A program made the translations under genes and the position numbers. The notes under the pieces were generated by a model. The model was given only the letters and a program-made list of their open reading frames with translations. It made no database searches and was not told the origin of the DNA. This document shows, in pieces, positions 41,375-54,748 of a stretch of 64,000 nucleotides of DNA (its first letter is position 1; the number at the start of each line of letters is the position of its first letter). The DNA is from Pascua guehoae (Eukaryota > Basidiomycota > Tremellomycetes > Trichosporonales > Trichosporonaceae): assembly GCA_001600415.1 (NCBI GenBank), contig BCJX01000006.1, forward strand, positions 336,388 to 400,387, given 5' to 3'.

Positions 41375-44300
41375 ATGGCGCCCCGCTTTGGCGCAACCAA
41401 ATTCCGGAATGCGGTGCCCGCGATCCCGCCGCGGGACCAGTGGTACCGCACGCACCTGCCGTCGGCGTCGGATGCGCCGGCCAACACGTCGAGCTTTAGC
41501 TCGGTGGTCAAGACGAACCGCGAGTGGGTGGTGACGCTGACGCCGAGCGGGGACGCGAGTGTGCGCGCGTACGCGAGCGTGGGCGAGCGCGAGGGCGAGG
41601 TGTGGAACGGACGGCTGGGGACGGTGCTGGACTGGGATCTGAGCCGGCTCGAGGACGGGGGTATGGTTGTCGCTGGCGGCGATGGGAGTGTGAGTATCCT
41701 GCGGGTGTGCGGTGTCGGGAGTCGGCCGTATCTGAGGTCGGAGCTAGAAACCTCGTGTATCAGCAAGTTCTAGGCTAGAATGACTTGCATGTCACGGCAT
41801 GGGTCCGAGACACACGGGCACAAGACTGAACCGTGCTGATGCCAGATTGCATACTACACGGTATCCGGCGCGGCCGACGAGGTGCACCGCTTCAGCACGC
41901 CGGGCAAGATTACGAGCATTGCGCTGCACCCCACGACGGCGGGCATTGCGGCATCGTCGTCGCCCGAGACGCTCGCCGTGTGGGACGTGGCCGCGTCGAC
42001 GGCGGCGCTCAAGCTGAGCTCGCCGGGCAACCAGGCGCTGTGGTCCGTGTCGTGGAGTGCGGACGGGCGCCTGCTGGGCGGCGTGAGCAAGAAGGGCGTG
42101 TGTGGGATCTGGGACCCGCGTGCAGGTGCGGACCCGGTGCAGAAGCGCGACCTCTCGACGATGCTGCAGGCACTCAAGCCGGTACGCGCGGCGTTTGTCG
42201 ACTCTGACCTGTTTGTGACGTCCTTTTCCCGCTCGCGGGCACGGCAGTACTCGCTCCTTGCCGGCGACGGCCTGGGGACTCTGTTTACGGCGCAGGTGGA
42301 CAACTCGCAGGGCCCGCTCATGCCCCTCGTCGACGCCGAGCGTCGCATCGTCTACGCCGCCGGAAGGGGCGACATGACTCTCCGCCAGATCGAGCTCCAG
42401 GGCCCCCAGGGGTATCAGGAAATGACGCACCCCCTCCCTTCCCCGCTCACGAGCGGCTCGCTCGCGGCCGCACACTGGTCGACACTCCCCGTCATGCAGG
42501 CCCAGATTGCCTCCATCATCGTGCCCACCACAGACAAGGACGGCGAGACCCTCCTCCCCGTCGCAGTCAAGGTGCCCCGTCGCTTCCTCATCGACTACCA
42601 CGCCGATCTCTACCCCGACGTCACTGGCTCAGTGCCCGAGCAGGATGCCGCGGATTGGCTCCAGGGCGAAGATCGGCGACCACTCCTGGCCAGTATTGAC
42701 CCGGGGCGCAGGGGTGAGTGGGAGCGCGCGGTCGCGGGCGGCAAGGAAAAGTGGGCCGGCAAGGTCGGTGGTGGTTCCAAGGCTCCGCCGAGCGAAACGC
42801 CCGCCGAGGCGACGCCGCCCCCTGCCGTAGAGCGTTCAGCGTCTGCACCTGCATCGGCGCCGGCAGACCTCAAATCGCTGGCGTCTGCTGCCCCACCCCC
42901 AGAGCGCACCGCCACGCCCATGGCCGCACCACAGCAGCCTCCGCCACCTACCATTCCCCCTGCCGCCGCCTCTGTCACCGAACCCAAGCCCGGTCTCCCA
43001 CCCCTCGAGGACGGAGAAGACTACACGAGCACATCCTACAAGGTCCGCCAGATTGGCAAGCACATTCTCGCCTGTCGCGAGGAGCAAAAGCAAGTGGACA
43101 AGGGTCCTCTCATGGTCGGTCTCCAGGGCCCGCAGGGGTGTGGAAAGACGACTCTATGTGATGCGCTTCTCGCCTATCTCCGTGACAAGGGGCAGCGTGT
43201 CGGTGTGCTCTCGCTTGATGGTGAGTTGGATCGGGGCGAGCTGTCGCCAAAAAGGATGGTGTCTACCCGCTTCGATTGTTGGCGCTATCAACAATATAGT
43301 CAAGTGGCGAGAACCGCAGATAACAACAACGCAGAGAGTAACTGACACCAGACCTGTACCGCACACACGACGGCCTCGTCCAAGTCGCCAAGGACCACCC
43401 GTCCAACGGCATGCTCTCCGGGCGCGGTCTCCCGGGCACGCACGACGTTGAGCTCGCGACCTCGGTCCTCTCGGCGGTCTCTGACATCAACGTCAGCGGC
43501 GGCTCTGTCGAGCTACCCGTGTTCGACAAGAGCCTGTGCGGTGGTGCCGGCGACCGGAGCACCGAAACCGTCACCGTGACCGGCCCACTCGACGTCTTTG
43601 TCCTTGAGGGCTGGTCGATGGGCTTTGGCGCACTCTCGCCTGCCGAGCTCGAGCGGCGCTATGCTGCAAAGGACGGCAAATACTTCCCACGCCACAGCCT
43701 CGAATCTCTGTCCGAAGTCAACGACTATCTCGCCGCATTCGCACGCGACGTCTACCCTCCCTTCAGCGCAATGGTCCAGGTCGAGCCGACAAGCAATGAG
43801 CACGTGTTTGCATGGCGCCTCGAGCAGGAGCACTCGATGAAGGCCAAGAATGGCGGCAAGGGCATGACGGACGACCAGGTGCATGCGTTCATCGAGCGGT
43901 ACATGCCCGCATACGAGCTGTGGGCCGCGGGCGTCGACGACCCCAAGGCCCCATGGAGCGGAAATGTCCTGCGGCTCAAGTATGGTGAGCACCGTGAGGT
44001 GCTGGGCATTGAGACGCCGAGTGGGGGTGCAAATGTTCCGACGAGTAACGGCAAGGCGGAGGGTCGGGACGCACCAGCCCCGAAGACGTCAACTCCAGAG
44101 GCGAAGCCTGTGGCCGCGGCTGCCTCGTCTCCTTCTCGCTCTTCCCCTGCGCGTACTGCCTCACCTCCTTCCCGTTCGTCCCCAGCTCGTGCCGTCTCAG
44201 CTACTGCCACCCGCACTCCCGCAGCTTCGACTCCACCCTCGGCGACCGCTACACCCTCTGCGCCAGCTGCAACTGCTGCCACTCCCTCGTCTCCCTTCCA

Positions 44301-45873
44301 CCCCACCTGGTCGCGCAAGTACATTTCCGGCAAGTCGCCGCTCAACCCGACCTACTTTGAGATCCCGCCCGTCGAGACTCTGCACCAGGACAGCCTGATC
44401 CTGCACGTGACGCCGCACCACCTGCTGTTCCCGATCCAGGGCCCCGGCGGCCGGGTGTGCGTCCACCCCCGCGAGCGCAAGGGGCGCATGCCCGGCGGCG
44501 GGGTGGGATACCTCAGTGCCGGCGTCGGTGTGGCCGACTTTGCGGCAGACCCGTTCAGCGACGCGGTCGTGCTCGCGGGCGACGACGGTGTGCTGCGTCT
44601 CTGGCACGTGGCTGCGGCGGGGATCGAGGGACCCGGGCCCGAGCCAGAGGTGGTGATGCGTGGCGAGCGCGTGGATAAGATTGTGCAGATTGCGTTCCAC
44701 CCGACAGCCGAGGGGCTGCTGGTGGCTGTGTCAAACGAGTACGGGAGCGCGAGTCTGCGGTTCTTTGATACCCACAAGGGCGAGGAGGTCAAGCGTATCG
44801 AGCTCGGTGCTCGTAGTGTGAGTTAAACTGAAAATGGGGACAAGGTGTAGACACTGACTGGACCCAGGTGCACAACTTTGCCATCTCGCCCGCTGGCGAC
44901 CGCATTGCGGTGACTGCCAAGGACGGGCGCGTGCTCGTCGTCGACCCGCGCACGGGCACGACGGTCGAGGGCAAGGTGAACACGTCCCCGCGCGCCCTCC
45001 AGCTGGCATGGGTGGACGGCTCGCACGTCGTCTCGCTCGGCTTTGGCCGCGGCTCGGTGCGCAAGGTAGCCCTGTACGCCGTCGACGACACGGTCCACAC
45101 GATCGCCGACGCGACCCTCGACGTGTCCCCCGCCGTCCTCTTCCCTGTCTTCGACCCCGACACGGCCATCCTCTACGTCTGGGGTAAGGGTGAGCGCGCC
45201 ATCCACGCTTACCACGTGTCGCCCACCCCACCAGCCAACGAAGAGGCCCTCGCCAAGCTGCCCAGCTTTTCGCACCCGAGCGGCGCACCCCAGCTCGCCG
45301 TCGCGTTTGACCCCAAGACATCGCTCAACGTCAAGAACGTAGAGGTCGCGCGCGCCCTGCGGCTCACCGCCCGCACTGTCGAAGAGGTGACGTTTACGAT
45401 CCCCCGCAACCGCAAAGAGTTTTTCCAGGACGACATTTATGTGCCCACGCGCGAGGGTGCGGCGACAACCGCGGCCCGCTGGCTCGACGGCGACGACGGC
45501 GTGACCAAGACGAGGGACCTGAGGCCAGAGGGCATGATGCCGCGTGAGTAGGTTGTGATTTCAGGGGACAAGGCAGAAACTGGCCACTACGCACTGTGTC
45601 CACTGCCAACCGTGGTACGACTCCCCCTCGCCCCTCCCCCCCCCGCCCCCCCCTTTCCCTTCACTACCCCACGACTAACGCACAGTCTCCCAAGCGCCCG
45701 CCATTGTCTCGACGCGCAAAAAGTTTGTGCCCGCCGCCAAGGTCATGTCGGAAGAGGAACAAAAGCAGGCCGCCATGGACCGCCTGTTTGCAAAGGCCCA
45801 GCTGGACGACAGCAGCAGCGACGAGGAAGAGGTCGTCAGGGGCGTGGCGCCTCCAGATGATGATTGGGACTAG
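41375..45873 (+). CDS. Coronin-7-like protein with embedded Tda10/glycerate-kinase-like domain
   Basis: Five exons (41375-41689, 41846-43220, 43352-44817, 44868-45543, 45686-45873) join in phase to 1339 residues. Propeller 1 (about 1-400) begins with a coronin-type N-terminus (KFRNAVPAIPPRDQWYR) and contains ETLAVWDVAAST and KGVCGIWDPRAG. A Pro/Ala linker leads to a P-loop kinase (about 500-790): Walker A GPQGCGKTT (about 533), LPGTHDVELA, FVLEGWSMGF, YPPFSAMVQVEP and the helix GMTDDQVHAFIERYMPAYELW, which closely resemble yeast Tda10 (Ygr205w) and plant glycerate 3-kinase. A Ser/Pro/Ala linker precedes propeller 2 (about 875-1285). The tail SSSDEEEVVRGVAPPDDDWD resembles the acidic Arp2/3-binding end of Coronin-7/POD1. 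Roles in actin or Golgi traffic are inferred; the kinase substrate is unknown. Intron 2 splits the kinase just after LSLDG. Confidence 0.9.
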
Positions 45874-46495: not shown

Positions 46496-49400
46496 CTACA
46501 CTGCATGACTCGGCGAGGGAGAACGGGCACGCTCGTCGTCGAGGTTGAACGCCTCTGCCTGTCCGTCGTACTCGCTCTCGCTCGAGATGGACGGCATGTG
46601 CGCCACGTGTCCGGATCCGGTCGCGGGCCCAGTGCCCGGTACACCCGATGGCGACGGGACGGGATACCTGTTGCCTGGGAGGACGTAGAGGTTGCCTGTG
46701 CGCGGGGGGTTGGGGTTGCCGTATGCCACTTGGGGCAGGGGGAAGTTGGTGAACGTGTTGCCGGTGGGCGTGTTTGACGTGGTAGACGCGGCGTTGCCAC
46801 CCGGGCCGGTGGCGGTGGCGCCGGGAGTCGTGTCCCCGGGGGTACCCACACTCGACGACGACGAGCTCCCATAGGCGAGGTTGGCCGTGCTGAGGCTCAG
46901 TGCGGTGAGGTTTGGGTGCGATGTGGCGTGCTTGCTCGGCACGGGGTACGGCGGGTTCTGGCCGAGGGTATGCGCCTCGCGATTGTTGGGGACAGAGTAC
47001 GGGCTCGAATTCGTGCTGGCAGTCGTGTTGCGTCCCAGGCTCGTGCTCGAAAGTCCCGCGGCGGCGTTGCTCGAAATGTTGTACATGTCGGCGCGGTCGC
47101 GGTACGCCTGTGCGCTGCCGGGGCGTAAAGCCGGGAGGGCCGTGGCGCTCGCACTGTCGGCGAGGCTGAGCGAGCTAAAGCTATCCGTGCTCCGCGCATA
47201 CCGCTGTGGGTACCGGCCAACACTGCCAAACTGATTGGGATAGTTGGCACCATTGCCAAAGTATTCGTGCTCTACGGGAACACTCGGTGACCGCACCATC
47301 CCGCGGGCCATGACGGCGCGCAGACGCGAGTGAGCTTCGCTTCCCATTAACGCGCCGCCAAACGCAAGCGAGTCAGCGCTGCTCCCGCGCGTATAGTGCG
47401 ATGCACCCGGCATTGCGCGGCGGGCAGCAAGAGGAGACGCCGAGGTACCGTTGGCAGGCGGGTCGAGGCCGTCATCGAAGAACTGGTTGAGCGAATGCAG
47501 AGCGCCTACGAGGTCACCCATGGATGCATTGTCTGGGACACTCATGGGCGGCGACGGCATGTCGAGGGACACCTGACTTGTACTCCAGCCATCGCCCTTT
47601 TGCTTGAGGTCTGAGAACTGGAGCACTGAAAAGTGCGCCGATGCTGCGCGCGACTCGATGGCACAAGTGTTGAATACAGCGTGCACATTGCTGCGCGTGA
47701 CTTCGGAGCGCTCACTCGCGTTCGGTACGCTCCAGCCGGTCGCGTCGATGGGCCCAAACAGCTGGTCATTTGATTCTCCAGACGGGTCGCCAGCTGCAAA
47801 CGACGGGAGATCGAGGACTTCGAGCGCCTGAGCCGAGTGTTTGGTGGAGACGAGACGGAGAAGCGGGCGGGCCAGCTCACGCCTGTACGGTGCGAGTGAC
47901 GCGCGTGTTTCGGGAAACGAGAGCACAAGCTTGAGCATCTGGAGTGCCTTGTCGCGCATCCAGTCGTTGCGGTTGAGCACAAAGCCGAGCAGCAGCGTGA
48001 CAATCTGCAATGCCTTGGTGCCCATGTGATCGCGGAGCAGCGACGCCGCTTGGCGAATAAAGTCGTCCTTTGCGCGGAAGCGGGCGCGAGCAAAAGACGT
48101 CAGGAGACGCGCAAAGCTTGGGTCCTCCTGTCGCTCGGCAATATCTGCGAGGTCGGTAGCCATGAGCGCCAGGTCGTCGTTGGGCTCGCCCAGGTCGGTA
48201 GAGTGCAGCATCCACGGCAACGCGGCAACGAACCCGTGCAAAAGGCGGTCCTGCGGATCGTCAATCAGCTCCGAGTCGGGTACGCTAGTCAGGCGGCGGA
48301 TGACGTCAAACGTGAGCATGTCCGTCTTGGCCGAGCGGAGACCAATGAGGAGCAGGGCCTGGAGATGGGGTGGGGGGCCGACAAGGTCTGCAGGGCGGTA
48401 GGAAACGAGGTGCTTGACGACGGCGGGATCGGCGAGGTTGGTCTTGTCGAGGACGTGTGACAAGAGCTCGATCACCTCGTTGAATTCAATTTCGTATGGC
48501 GTCGTGAGACACATGACCGAGCACCAAAAGATTTGCGGATAGTTGCGGATATCGGTCTCCGAGAGGGACTGGACAATGGACGCAAATGTGCGCATGACCT
48601 CGTTGTTGAATACCTGAATCTCTGCGGACGGACTGGCAATGGTGCTGGACAAGCGCGCGAGCACGTCGGATACCATGCGGGGGTTGATATCTGGCGAGAG
48701 GATGCGGAAGACCTGGAACGAGCGGCATGCGAGGTGTCGAATGGTGCACGACGTGGCCCAGTCGAGCGCCAGTGTACCCCATTGCTGATGCACCTTTGGC
48801 TGCAGGGGTTGAAGAATACCGAGAATCTTGGGGACGAGGGCCGACATTTGAACGGGCGCATGGAGATAGGTCTCCGGACTGCCCGCATCGTCTGCCTTCC
48901 AAAACATGGTTGCGCGCTCGCTGGTCAGGGTCGTCATCTTGGCCTCGGCGGCAGCCCACACTGCGACGCGGTCTGCGGGCTCGGTCACTTGAAGGTTTGA
49001 CAGGTCGCCCAACCACGTGCGCAGGACCTGGAAGAGCACGCGTTGCGCCTGTTCACGCATGGGCGGGCTGGGGTCGTCGCAGTGGATAAAGGCGACGTGA
49101 AGCAGTGTGGGCAGGCGGCTGGGCAAAGTCGTATGGTTGAGACGGTGTGGGAGGAGCTCGCCTGCAAACAAGAGGGCCATCTGGCCCTGTGACAGAGGCT
49201 TGGTGCGCATGGTCGAGCTAAAGAGCGCGTCGAGGTTGGCGAGCGATGTCTCGGGCGTCTTGGGCACGTCTGCCTGTGCAGCAGTTGCCATGTCGCTCGG
49301 GTCGACAAAGTCGCAAATCTCGTCAAAGATGACGTCGCCAGCGGATGACTCTGCGAGGCAGGCAATAATCTGCTGTGTGTGCGTGACAAAGTCTGGGCTG

Positions 49401-52400
49401 CCGCGCTTGGCACCCTGCTCGAACAAAAACTTTACGAGTGCCGTCGTGTTGCGCGATCGTCCAGAGCCCGCAAAGCTGACGAGGATTTCGCGAATGTCCT
49501 CGAGATGATCGTCGCTGAAACGCACGACGAGGTACATGAGATTGGAAAGCGCTTGATGCTCAAGTGCGAGGGCTTCAGTCGAGAGCTGCGAAGTGTTGGC
49601 CGGAAGCTCGAGCACCTTCATAAACGCCGGGATGCTGGTGAGGGTCGCACGGCGGCGCGGGGCTTCCAGTTGGGATAGGCGTGTGGTGCACTCGGCCAAG
49701 AATGGGAGCGCCAGGTTGGGATACAGTGCTGCGAGGTTTGTGGCCATCTCTTGCTGAGCGTGAAGATAGACGATGGGTGCCGAGCTTCCAACGGCAGAGA
49801 GGAGTGGTGCGACGCGGAGGCGGTCTGACGGGTCGTCAAAGAGCCACACTGCAAGTTGGAATGCACGTTGGCGCACGTCGGCCACAGGATGACCGAGCTT
49901 GGACAGCGAGAGGCATGCGAGTTGCGCCGGTGGCAACTCGATGGTCCCATCGCTGATCAAGTCGGCTACCACGCCAAAGAAGGACGACTCGAGGGAAAAG
50001 TGTTCACCCTCGCCGAAAGACTGGTGGAGCACCTCATCGGCCAAGCGTTCCACGTCCCAGTTGTACTTTATGAGCGCACTCAGGGCCTTGCGTCCGGTCT
50101 CGTGATGTGATGTCTGGGCCGTTTGGAACATGCCACGAACCCATCGGAGAACAGTCAGAGGCTCAACAATGTGGTCGGACGCCTGCTGTGCTGGTGTAGA
50201 CTCGGACGCTGAAATAAGTTTGCCGAGCTGAATGGTGAGCACACTCTAGGGTAGAACAACTTACACAAAGGCTCGCCATGGCCTCGGCGGCAGCCTGGGA
50301 GAGCAGCTTTGTCTTTGACTGCAGATCGTCGAGGTACTGTGCACGGTCTCTATCTCCGCGGTACGAGTCGGCGGCGGCCTGGAGAGTATGCGACTCGCGT
50401 GCCTTGGCGACATCGGGCCGACGGCCGACGTGACACCAGTCGTAGCAGAGCTTGAAGATGGCACCGCGCACTTCCTCGCCAAAGAACCGGTCACTACTAT
50501 CGAGCTGACCGAGGGCCGTGCATAGGTAGTCGACGACGATGCAGAACCAGCGTCGGAGGCTCTGGAGATCATAGTCTTCACGGACGGGGCGGTCGGAAAG
50601 GAGGGTGAGAGTAAGCTTGACAAACCCAATGAGAGACGAGAGGTTGTCGAGTTGAGACGGCGACCGGCCGTCGAGAATGAGCGGCGCGACGAGACGGAAG
50701 ACATGCGCGGCAGCTGTCCACATGACGCCCTGGGACGACGGGCGACGCTGGATGTTTGACGCCTTGTACGTGTCTGCCAGTCGGCGTACAGAGGCCAGGA
50801 GGGTCTCGAAAAGAGGCTGGAGGGATGATTGCCGGATGGAACCGAGTGCAAAGACGGCGGCATCCTGGAAACGCCGATCGTCCAGCGTAATCGTCTGAAC
50901 AAGGTACGAGAACAGTGCGGGTGTCATCATGACTTCGGTCGAGAGTGTTGTTTCCTTGCGTTGAGCTGCCTTTTCCGGTCCTGCATCCATTGTCGCGCAT
51001 AGAACCGAGCAGTAGAGGCGCCACTGGTCTGCGAGCAGGGTTGCGTCGGAAATGGTACGGTTTGGACTCTGTCGATGTGGCTGAGGCTTTGCCGATGCGG
51101 TCGAGTGGACGTGAGGCTGTAAACGCACGACCGTTGTCGCAACTAACATGCGCAAAGCCTGGACTGGCTTGGGTAGCTGATCGTTGACCTTGGCGATAAA
51201 CCATGGCAAGATGGCCGTCCACAGTGCCGCGTCCTTGGCGCTATCACTCTCTGCAATCTTTTGGAACAGTTTGGTGCCCTTGAATGTTTCGAGGCGATGA
51301 CCGTCGTTGGGCAACAGAGTCGATATCTTGCGGAGCGTTGCAATAGTGGTCTCGTCGACATTTTCCTCGTACAGCTGCAGGAGCGACGTCGAGGTCAGCT
51401 TGTCGGGCAGCAGCATCCGGCTATACCGGAACGGCGCCGACGGCCCACGTGCCTGACCGACAAGATCACGCGCGGCCTCAAAGACGGGGTGTGCGAGCTT
51501 GCGAAGACTGGCGCTACACGAGCATAGCAAGAACAGACCGCAGCACTCGATCCTGCGGACGAATGCCGCGTCGGCAGTCTGGACATTATCCGACGAGCGG
51601 TACTGCTCGGCGAGCGTCTGAAGAACGTCGACCCAGAGTTTGACGACACGAACGAGCTGCGACTCGAGCAAGCGTGTGCCGACAAAGTGATCGCGAAAGA
51701 CGTGGCGCGTCGTAAAGACAAACTGTTGGTAGTTGTCGACGAGGATGCGGCAAATAGTCGGGTCTTCGGCAACACGGCGCATTGTCTGCGACGCAATCTC
51801 GCACGTGTTTGGATCGGCCGAAAATGTAGCACGGCAGAGAAGGTTGACCAGCTTGGTCGTGTCGGATGTCGTGGTGGACGGGCCTGTGAGGAGTTGCGGG
51901 AGACATTCCAAAATGGCGGTGAGGAGACGGAACGTGGGCTCAAAGCGGGACGGGTACCCAACGTGAATATCGCCATGCTTGCGCGTCACCTGCTCGCCCG
52001 AGCTTTCCCATGACGCACTCGACGCATGGGCCGATAGTGTGACAGTATCACTCGAGAGGAGAATGGGACCGACCGTGCGATCGCAGCTGAACAGCACGTT
52101 GATGGTTAATTGTCCGTTGAGGTTTAAGAATTCTGCCACCTCGGGGGTAGACGAATCAACCATCGTTGTCGACGTCGCCTCGCACTCTTTAAACTCCAGG
52201 CGGTTAAAGTCGGCGCTCTTTGGAAAGGTGACAATCTGGTCATCCGACAGACTTCGCAGGGTGAATGTCGAAGCACGAACAGCGACATAGGCGCGTTCTG
52301 GATGCAAAACGTCACCCGGGGAGCCATCGGCGCTGCGGTTGGGAACGCAGTCACGCAAAAACTCGCCGACGAGTTCCTGGCCATACTCGAATTGTCTTGT

Positions 52401-54748
52401 CATGACATAGTGCAGGATGGCCACAAATGGCTCGAGTGGGAGGTCGGGTGGGAGTAGCTGACTCGAGTGTGCAGGGAAATGGTGACGAATGAGGACTTCC
52501 AGTCGTTTACGTGTTGATGTCGAGCTCTCTGGGCAGCGGTTGAGGTAGACCCAGAGAAGCCGCACAAAGGCGTTCATGCCGACGACACGCATGGTTCGGT
52601 CCTGCGGGTTAGTTAAGTTTGGAGGGTCTAACCCACCTTGGTCTTGGTCGAAATGACATCAATGCAGCTCTGCCAGTGCTCCATGAACACTTCACGAGGC
52701 GACACGGCAAGCGCTACGACGACTAGGGGGAACGCAATGGTCCAGTACCGTGGCTTTGCAGCCATTGCCATGGCCCTTTGCAACACGACGGCAATCGCCT
52801 TGGACCAAATGGGGTGGTTGACCTCTGCGGTGGCCGCCTCAATGACGGGATGGAGGAGGTGCGTAAAGGTTTCCGCCCATGCACACTTGAGCGAGTTGCC
52901 GTGTGCATTGGCAAAATAGGTCGATAGTGTCTGGATAAACTCGGCGGCCATCTCGAGCTCGGTCTCGGGGTAGACCTGGTGGGTTAGCAGGAGATGGGCT
53001 GGGCAGCACCCACCCTCAATTTGAGCTGCCTGATGCCCTTCAAAATATGCTCAATCTTGGCCTCTGGGTCCTTGATTGCACCAGAACTGAGCCCGCTCAA
53101 CTCGCGGACAAACCTGTCGCTGACAGTCAGGAAACGCGTGTTAGACAGCTCGCCCAAAAAGTCGACGAGGAGACCCGAAACTGCTCTGCGATGTGACAAG
53201 TCGTCTGGGCGTTCCGAGCGGAACAGACTAAACGCCGTGTGCTCGAGGTTGAGTGCGACCTCTTCGCCGAGCGAGTCGGGAGGTACGATGCGCACAATCT
53301 CAATCAGTGCGCGGTGGTAAATGTACCGCGACGCCGACGCCTTGCGGCTACCCAGCACGGCGGCAGCTTCCTCGGGCCGGATCTGCAACCCCATCGACTG
53401 GGACAGATGCGCGCGGACCTCGGCCGGTTGGATGCTGTCGCACTGAAGGCGGCACCACGCGCTCAAGAGGTCAATGACTCTGCGGGCATGGCGTCGTGCA
53501 CAGTTTGCAAGCGACACGATGAGCTCGTCGAATGCTGGGTCGACCCCAGACTCGAGTGCGGATGAGAGCGATACCTGCGAGTTCTGGGGAAGGGTCAGCA
53601 AAGTACACACGCCGTGCTCACCAAAGGCTTTGCCAAGAGCTTTTTCAGTTTTTGCTCGGCAGCGTCTCTAAACTCGTGGAACACGACACGCAGCGCCTCT
53701 TCTGCTGGTGTCTTGCCAAACGCCTCGAGCGTCTCGTCTCCTGATATGCTTGTCTTGCGTCCAAAGCTCCCAAACATGCTAGTATCGCTTCCTGGTCGCC
53801 CCGCACGCGACGGGATGGACCTGTTGGGAATCTTTGGCACCGCAGGCACAATGTGGTGGTATTCGTCTGGTCGAAAGTTGGACGAGCTCTGGGACGTGAT
53901 GGAGCGCCCGCCAAACGACCGCTGCGACGAGTGCACAGTCGCGACGGAGCGGTTGCGGTCAGCATAGTTGTAGTTGTAATTGTAGCTGTAGAGCCCCGGC
54001 GGCGGCGCGACGGAATTCATCGACGTCTTTGTATTGTTCCGGGTGCGCCCGGTGTTGCCCGCTGCAGCGGTCGATGGTCCTGATGGCGGGGAAGGTGGAG
54101 TATCGAAGCGCGAGAAGGGGTTTTTCAGTGTGGGGTAACCGGGTGCGCCATACTGTTTGGGCTCAAACGACGGCACTGGCGGTACTGCTGGTGGTGGCGG
54201 CATGGTGCCGCCCGCCTTGAAGACGTTTTTCAGTGACGCAAACGAGCCCTTGCGCGTGCCCAGCAGCCCGCTGCCGAGCCCGCTGCCGAGTCCGCTGCCA
54301 AGGCCGCCGCCCAGTCCGCCGCCGCCTCCGTGCTGGTGCACGAGCGACGATGACGACCCGTTGGACAGCTTGCCCAGGCGGTTCATACTTGGCGGCTCGG
54401 CCATGAGGTCCTGCGTCGACGACGAGTACAGGCCACCCGCGCTGCTGCCTCCACCCATGCCACCAGGTTTGGTCGCGCGCGATACCGAGCCGTACCCCGC
54501 GGTCGAGCCATAGCCGGCGTTTGAGCCGTACCCCGCAGCAGACCGGCTCGACGACGGCTCGGACGAGAACGACGACTCCATACGGTGCGAGTAGAGTGAG
54601 TCGGGCTCGGGCGTGCCTGCCGCCGGAGACGCGCCGAACGCGGTCCGCCCAAACGAGGGAAGGGCGAGGTCGTCGTCATCGTCGAGGTCTGGTGGTTAGT
54701 AGAGGGCGACGCGGTGCAGGTCCTACCGGGGATGACGATTTCCTCCAT
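46496..54748 (-). CDS. TAO3: Cell morphogenesis scaffold PAG1/TAO3/Mor2 (Furry family)
   Basis: A large HEAT/armadillo scaffold of the RAM/MOR polarity pathway that binds NDR kinase (Cbk1-Mob2). Six exons (54748-54727, 54688-53622, 53583-53014, 52975-52637, 52601-50265, 50227-46496), all in phase, give 2688 residues, typical for Furry proteins. The N-terminus is an acidic stub (MEEIVIPGDLDDDDDLALP) followed by about 300 disordered residues with GYGS and GLGSG repeats. The conserved N-terminal block begins near EALRVVFHEFRDAAEQKLKKLL. The central (about 667-1445) and C-terminal (about 1446-2300) solenoid blocks follow, including HLACRSFQVFRILSP. The last roughly 350 residues are Ser/Asn/Pro-rich and disordered. 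The 22-nt first coding exon and four introns of 35-40 nt are notable. Confidence 0.92.

Follow-up and report, generated by a model that had tools for sequence, protein, structure and literature searches.

The gene at 41375-45873 on the forward strand of the window, the 64,000-nucleotide stretch of DNA analysed here, encodes a class-3 (tandem) coronin with a complete class III D-glycerate 3-kinase (GLYK/Tda10) between its two propellers, as confirmed by comparison of the predicted product with known sequences. Class-3 coronins (coronin-7/POD1) likewise combine two coronin propellers with an acidic C-terminal tail. Five exons, all on the forward strand, are spliced into a product of 1339 residues with a single stop, and all four introns start with GTGAGT and end with CAG. 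Exon 1 (41375..41689; residues 1-105) begins propeller 1; it follows the spliced frame to a GT donor, and its N-terminus is similar in full-length relatives. Exon 2 (41846..43220; residues 106-563) encodes the remaining propeller 1, linker 1 and the Walker A part of the kinase, and exon 3 (43352..44817; residues 564-1052) the remaining kinase, linker 2 and the first part of propeller 2; both are assigned by the spliced frame and PDB sequence matches. Exon 4 (44868..45543; residues 1053-1277) completes propeller 2, with a WD40_4 match at residues 1223-1263, and is supported by the frame, Pfam and PDB matches. Exon 5 (45686..45873), placed by the frame and tail identity, encodes the C-terminal tail with an acidic segment ending in APPDDDWD, followed by the stop codon. 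This gene structure is the one proposed by the sequence-only reading, and it was borne out.

The kinase domain is divided by the second intron. Its first part (42998..43220, approximately residues 490-563) contains the Walker A motif GPQGCGKTT, and its second part (43352..44031, to approximately residue 790) contains the motifs GRGLPGTHD, FDKS, GDRS, EGW, WRLEQEH, GMTDDQV and RYMP; both parts, on the forward strand, were located by PDB matches and conserved positions, and the N-terminal edge follows the start of the stand-alone relatives, which is of STSYK type. The intron between them (43221..43351, forward strand) is in phase 1 and lies inside the S-L-D^D-L-Y motif. A stand-alone kinase gene (L003) in the same genome has its intron at the same place and in the same phase.

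PDB sequence searches identified each domain separately. Residues 507-784 best match the D-glycerate 3-kinase 6ckg from Cryptococcus neoformans (E 2.3e-59), followed by yeast YGR205w/Tda10 (1odf, 1e-37) and plant GLYK (7xpc, 7.6e-36). These three have the kinase fold and conserved motifs in common with the domain described here but are stand-alone chains. Residues 887-1290 resemble coronin-1B (E 1e-38), and residues 1-383, queried alone, retrieve coronins at the top (9qey_H, E 5.4e-23), with coronin-1B, -6, -1C and -1A at 5e-23 to 4e-22. Pfam WD40_4 matches the product twice. The PDB and Pfam matches thus place two propellers in one polypeptide, as in tandem coronins, and the kinase has the family sequence and fold and the conserved motifs, including Walker A, of class III D-glycerate 3-kinases. 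No Pfam family reached the cut-off in the kinase region among the best 25 of 43 families, so Pfam alone could miss this domain; NPHP3_N, the commonest P-loop family on related rows, was found on only 6 of 30. A search of the genome with PF00485 hit one place, on contig C9, which is neither the window nor the stand-alone kinase. The acidic tail has a mean pairwise identity of 0.70 over 28 full-length rows, which end in DDDW (26), DDNW (one) or, for the window product, DDDWD. The extra aspartate (45868-45870) follows the tryptophan that closes all 27 other full-length rows. The domain search of the product therefore upheld the proposed order of propeller, Tda10/GLYK-like kinase, propeller and DDDW-type tail.

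The same order recurs in many relatives. Scoring in the whole-product search was confined to the 7995 candidates with the most words in common, so it carries no information on kinase-free coronins elsewhere; it gave 19 proteins at E<=0.001 (17 strong and two distant WD40 proteins). When the kinase part was compared with proteins of about the same overall length, 37 matched, and the kinase as the sole query matched 654, the best 120 of which were listed. The window product and 162 proteins were then classified according to which of propeller 1, kinase and propeller 2 they match. All three matches, with the kinase in the middle, occur in 34 (the window and 33 relatives, some truncated at one or both ends); kinase and propeller 2 are matched in 29, the kinase only in 95, propellers without kinase in four (including the distant P0019), and propeller 1 only in one, the distant P0018. 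Twenty-six of the fused relatives are source-labelled and belong to two orders, Tremellales and Trichosporonales, and seven are others. P0025 of C. neoformans has the same domain order, and the fusion is present in Cutaneotrichosporon oleaginosum (P0001), a yeast outside Cryptococcus. A chance arrangement is excluded because 33 further proteins carry a kinase match between propeller matches. Some of these seven look like frames from unannotated DNA: an insertion in P0015 falls precisely on the kinase intron site, and P0016 starts near that site. P0004, P0005 and P0006, which appear to be genomic frames, cross it uninterrupted on their way from within propeller 1 to PPDDDW.

The shared order and the uninterrupted passage of P0004-P0006 across the intron site indicate one gene. 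Homologues split consistently into two genes, the pattern that the sequence-only reading had named as counting against it, were not what was found. That a wrong gene model has merged two or three adjacent genes would be conceivable for a model drawn from sequence alone, but it is extremely improbable: exon 2 by itself bridges propeller 1 and kinase in one open frame, exon 3 does the same for kinase and propeller 2, the relatives include three that lack any insertion in genomic-looking frames, and a published case likewise depends on long bridging exons (PMC3203266, in the part of that paper used here). An artefact was rejected on the two bridging exons and the 33 same-order relatives. Downstream, a convergent neighbour (46499-52658, reverse strand) matches the N, middle and C domains of MOR2/PAG1 cell morphogenesis proteins over two long frames overlapping in the raw ORF list, and CAP, Utp12 and DEAD-box matches lie farther away. 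Nothing among the 6 of 22 long frames scanned around the fusion points to a gene cluster.

The sequence-only reading knew of no earlier description of this architecture, but there is one. Class-3 coronins with a D-glycerate 3-kinase were reported for Filobasidiella (Cryptococcus) in 2011 (Eckert, Hammesfahr, Kollmar 2011, BMC Evol Biol 11:268; PMC3203266). As far as the part of that paper used here goes, the kinase likewise stands between two coronin domains, the genome has a separate stand-alone kinase gene, and a CA-type tail is present; for the window product, the comparison of the tail covers its acidic end. The Filobasidiella gene model has EST/cDNA support for the termini only and contains long bridging exons. 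In the open-licence literature searched, PMC3203266 was the only paper found for coronin with glycerate 3-kinase, and none was found for coronin-7 with glycerate kinase, coronin with Tda10, or coronin-7 with Cryptococcus. The 2011 study, in the same part, held tandem kinase-coronins to be species-specific to Filobasidiella, whereas the present gene appears to come from another order, Trichosporonales, where the fusion also occurs. New here are the extent of the fusion, across Tremellales and Trichosporonales, and its degree of conservation.

The kinase is well preserved. All 52 family-conserved positions are kept, in agreement with the intact signature, including Walker A, claimed from the letters; those beyond nucleotide binding lie in GRGxPGTHD, FDKS, GDR, EGW, WRxxxE and GM.D. 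Conservation of the kinase is approximately equal to that of the propellers, and the linkers are unconserved. In a structure model of the relative P0011, whose kinase is 40-41% identical to 6ckg in structural alignments, disordered linkers join the kinase and the domains have no fixed packing (pTM 0.41). Propeller 1 of P0011 is truncated; no coronin match of its own was discernible among the structural matches listed, and this was not counted against the propeller.

Several orthologues have both propellers without the kinase. In the Vanrija albida orthologue (P0013) and in P0017, which is 84% identical to it, the absence is probably a real loss; in P0014 (Cutaneotrichosporon sp. HIS471) it may be due either to loss or to annotation. 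Vanrija humicola has a kinase in a separate gene (P0065), one of the nearest group of stand-alone kinases. The intron of the fused kinase matches that of the stand-alone paralogue, which argues for a gain at the DNA level, and the fusion probably arose once. A stand-alone kinase gene would have inserted into a coronin gene before the split of Tremellales and Trichosporonales, with later loss of the domain in the Vanrija albida lineage.

The kinase trees bear on this single gain. A quick tree covering 141 rows requires four changes of the fused label and leaves fused P0041 outside, beside the other long branch P0042. With P0042 left out and 6ckg as outgroup, a careful tree places P0041 inside; 6ckg lies outside the fused-kinase clade in both trees. 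Clade support is moderate (91/86). Against a single gain, the careful tree has three changes of the fused label, at least two of them forced by well-supported branches, and none (0%) of 200 bootstrap trees unites the fused rows in a single group, since P0046 and P0069, both lacking a propeller match, fall among them. One clade of the 34 fused kinases without P0046 and P0069 is neither rejected (p 0.209) nor demonstrated, and one that adds P0046, P0069, P0048 and P0065 gives p 0.106. Nesting of the Vanrija kinases P0048/P0065 with 11 Trichosporonales-type fused kinases gives an AU p of 0.085, which is no clear rejection, so these stand-alone kinases may derive from the fused gene by fission in Vanrija. 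The control, which groups those 11 kinases with the stand-alone lineage of this genome, is rejected (p 5.6e-5). P0042 (912 aa) carries a precomputed PF06824 domain, presumably of a glycosyl hydrolase family, and a GLYK-like kinase end, which would make it a further fusion unless two genes have been read through as one.

For function, an active kinase tethered to actin is most likely. Like other class-3 coronins, the protein would bind actin and Arp2/3 through its propellers and acidic tail, and by homology its kinase would use ATP to phosphorylate D-glycerate or one of its close analogues; plant enzymes convert D-glycerate and ATP to 3-phosphoglycerate (PMC10970406, in the part used here). The two linkers may tether the enzyme, concentrating it where the coronin is. 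A tethered, independently folding enzyme is favoured over a rigid allosteric switch because the linkers are unconserved and modelled as disordered. Glycerate as substrate is, however, drawn from homology, and several fungal relatives carry only the name ATP-dependent kinase TDA10. A use of the kinase fold as an ATP-dependent conformational switch or scaffold, making no phosphorylated metabolite, would suit the intact P-loop and a separate enzyme for metabolism, but it is improbable, given the kept positions beyond nucleotide binding, the flexible-looking linkers and a model without fixed packing.

The long conservation of the fusion suggests that tethering matters; the kinase-free coronin of Vanrija albida and the existence of a stand-alone paralogue speak against it. 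The kinase may instead be an ordinary active metabolic enzyme whose attachment to the coronin is without consequence, with selection on the enzyme and not on coupling. The separate kinase of Vanrija humicola, the kinase-free coronins P0013 and P0017, the loose linkers and the other kinase gene in this genome all fit such a passenger, a reading that is plausible but falls short of probable and overlaps with that of a tethered enzyme, so that the two are not exclusive. Against it, the fusion has lasted in 26 relatives of two orders and seven others despite other kinase genes in the lineage, and in this genome the short coronin, too, is followed by an enzyme domain. Overall, a semi-independent tethered glycerate kinase on a class-3 coronin, gained once by DNA-level insertion and lost in Vanrija albida, is a fairly probable account; counting against it are the stand-alone kinase of this genome and the kinase-free products of Vanrija albida and, by loss or annotation, P0014.

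The short coronin of Tremellomycetes carries a dUTPase (PMC3203266, in the part used here); like the tandem kinase-coronin, it is a coronin of this lineage with a small-molecule enzyme, but it differs in coronin class, enzyme and the C-terminal position of that enzyme. In this genome, the short coronin on contig C3 (L015, G000:C3:2509200-2512900) continues in frame into a dUTPase domain through a likely 56-base intron (L015 2370-2425), whose acceptor is one of four possible in that frame; the junction alone was modelled. Further dUTPase matches lie on contig C12. Both Tremellomycete coronins might have become enzyme carriers, with actin structures as the scaffold on which small-molecule enzymes are concentrated or controlled and with the output of the kinase dependent on actin binding, although this is rather unlikely. 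No experimental test of coupling between the kinase and actin or Golgi was found in the open-licence literature. PMC3203266, in the part used here, asked what reason there is for combining actin binding with a glycerate kinase in one protein; this question, in print since 2011, is now easier to test because the fusion is long-lived, the conserved positions are kept, C. oleaginosum carries the fusion, and Vanrija albida offers a natural kinase-free case.
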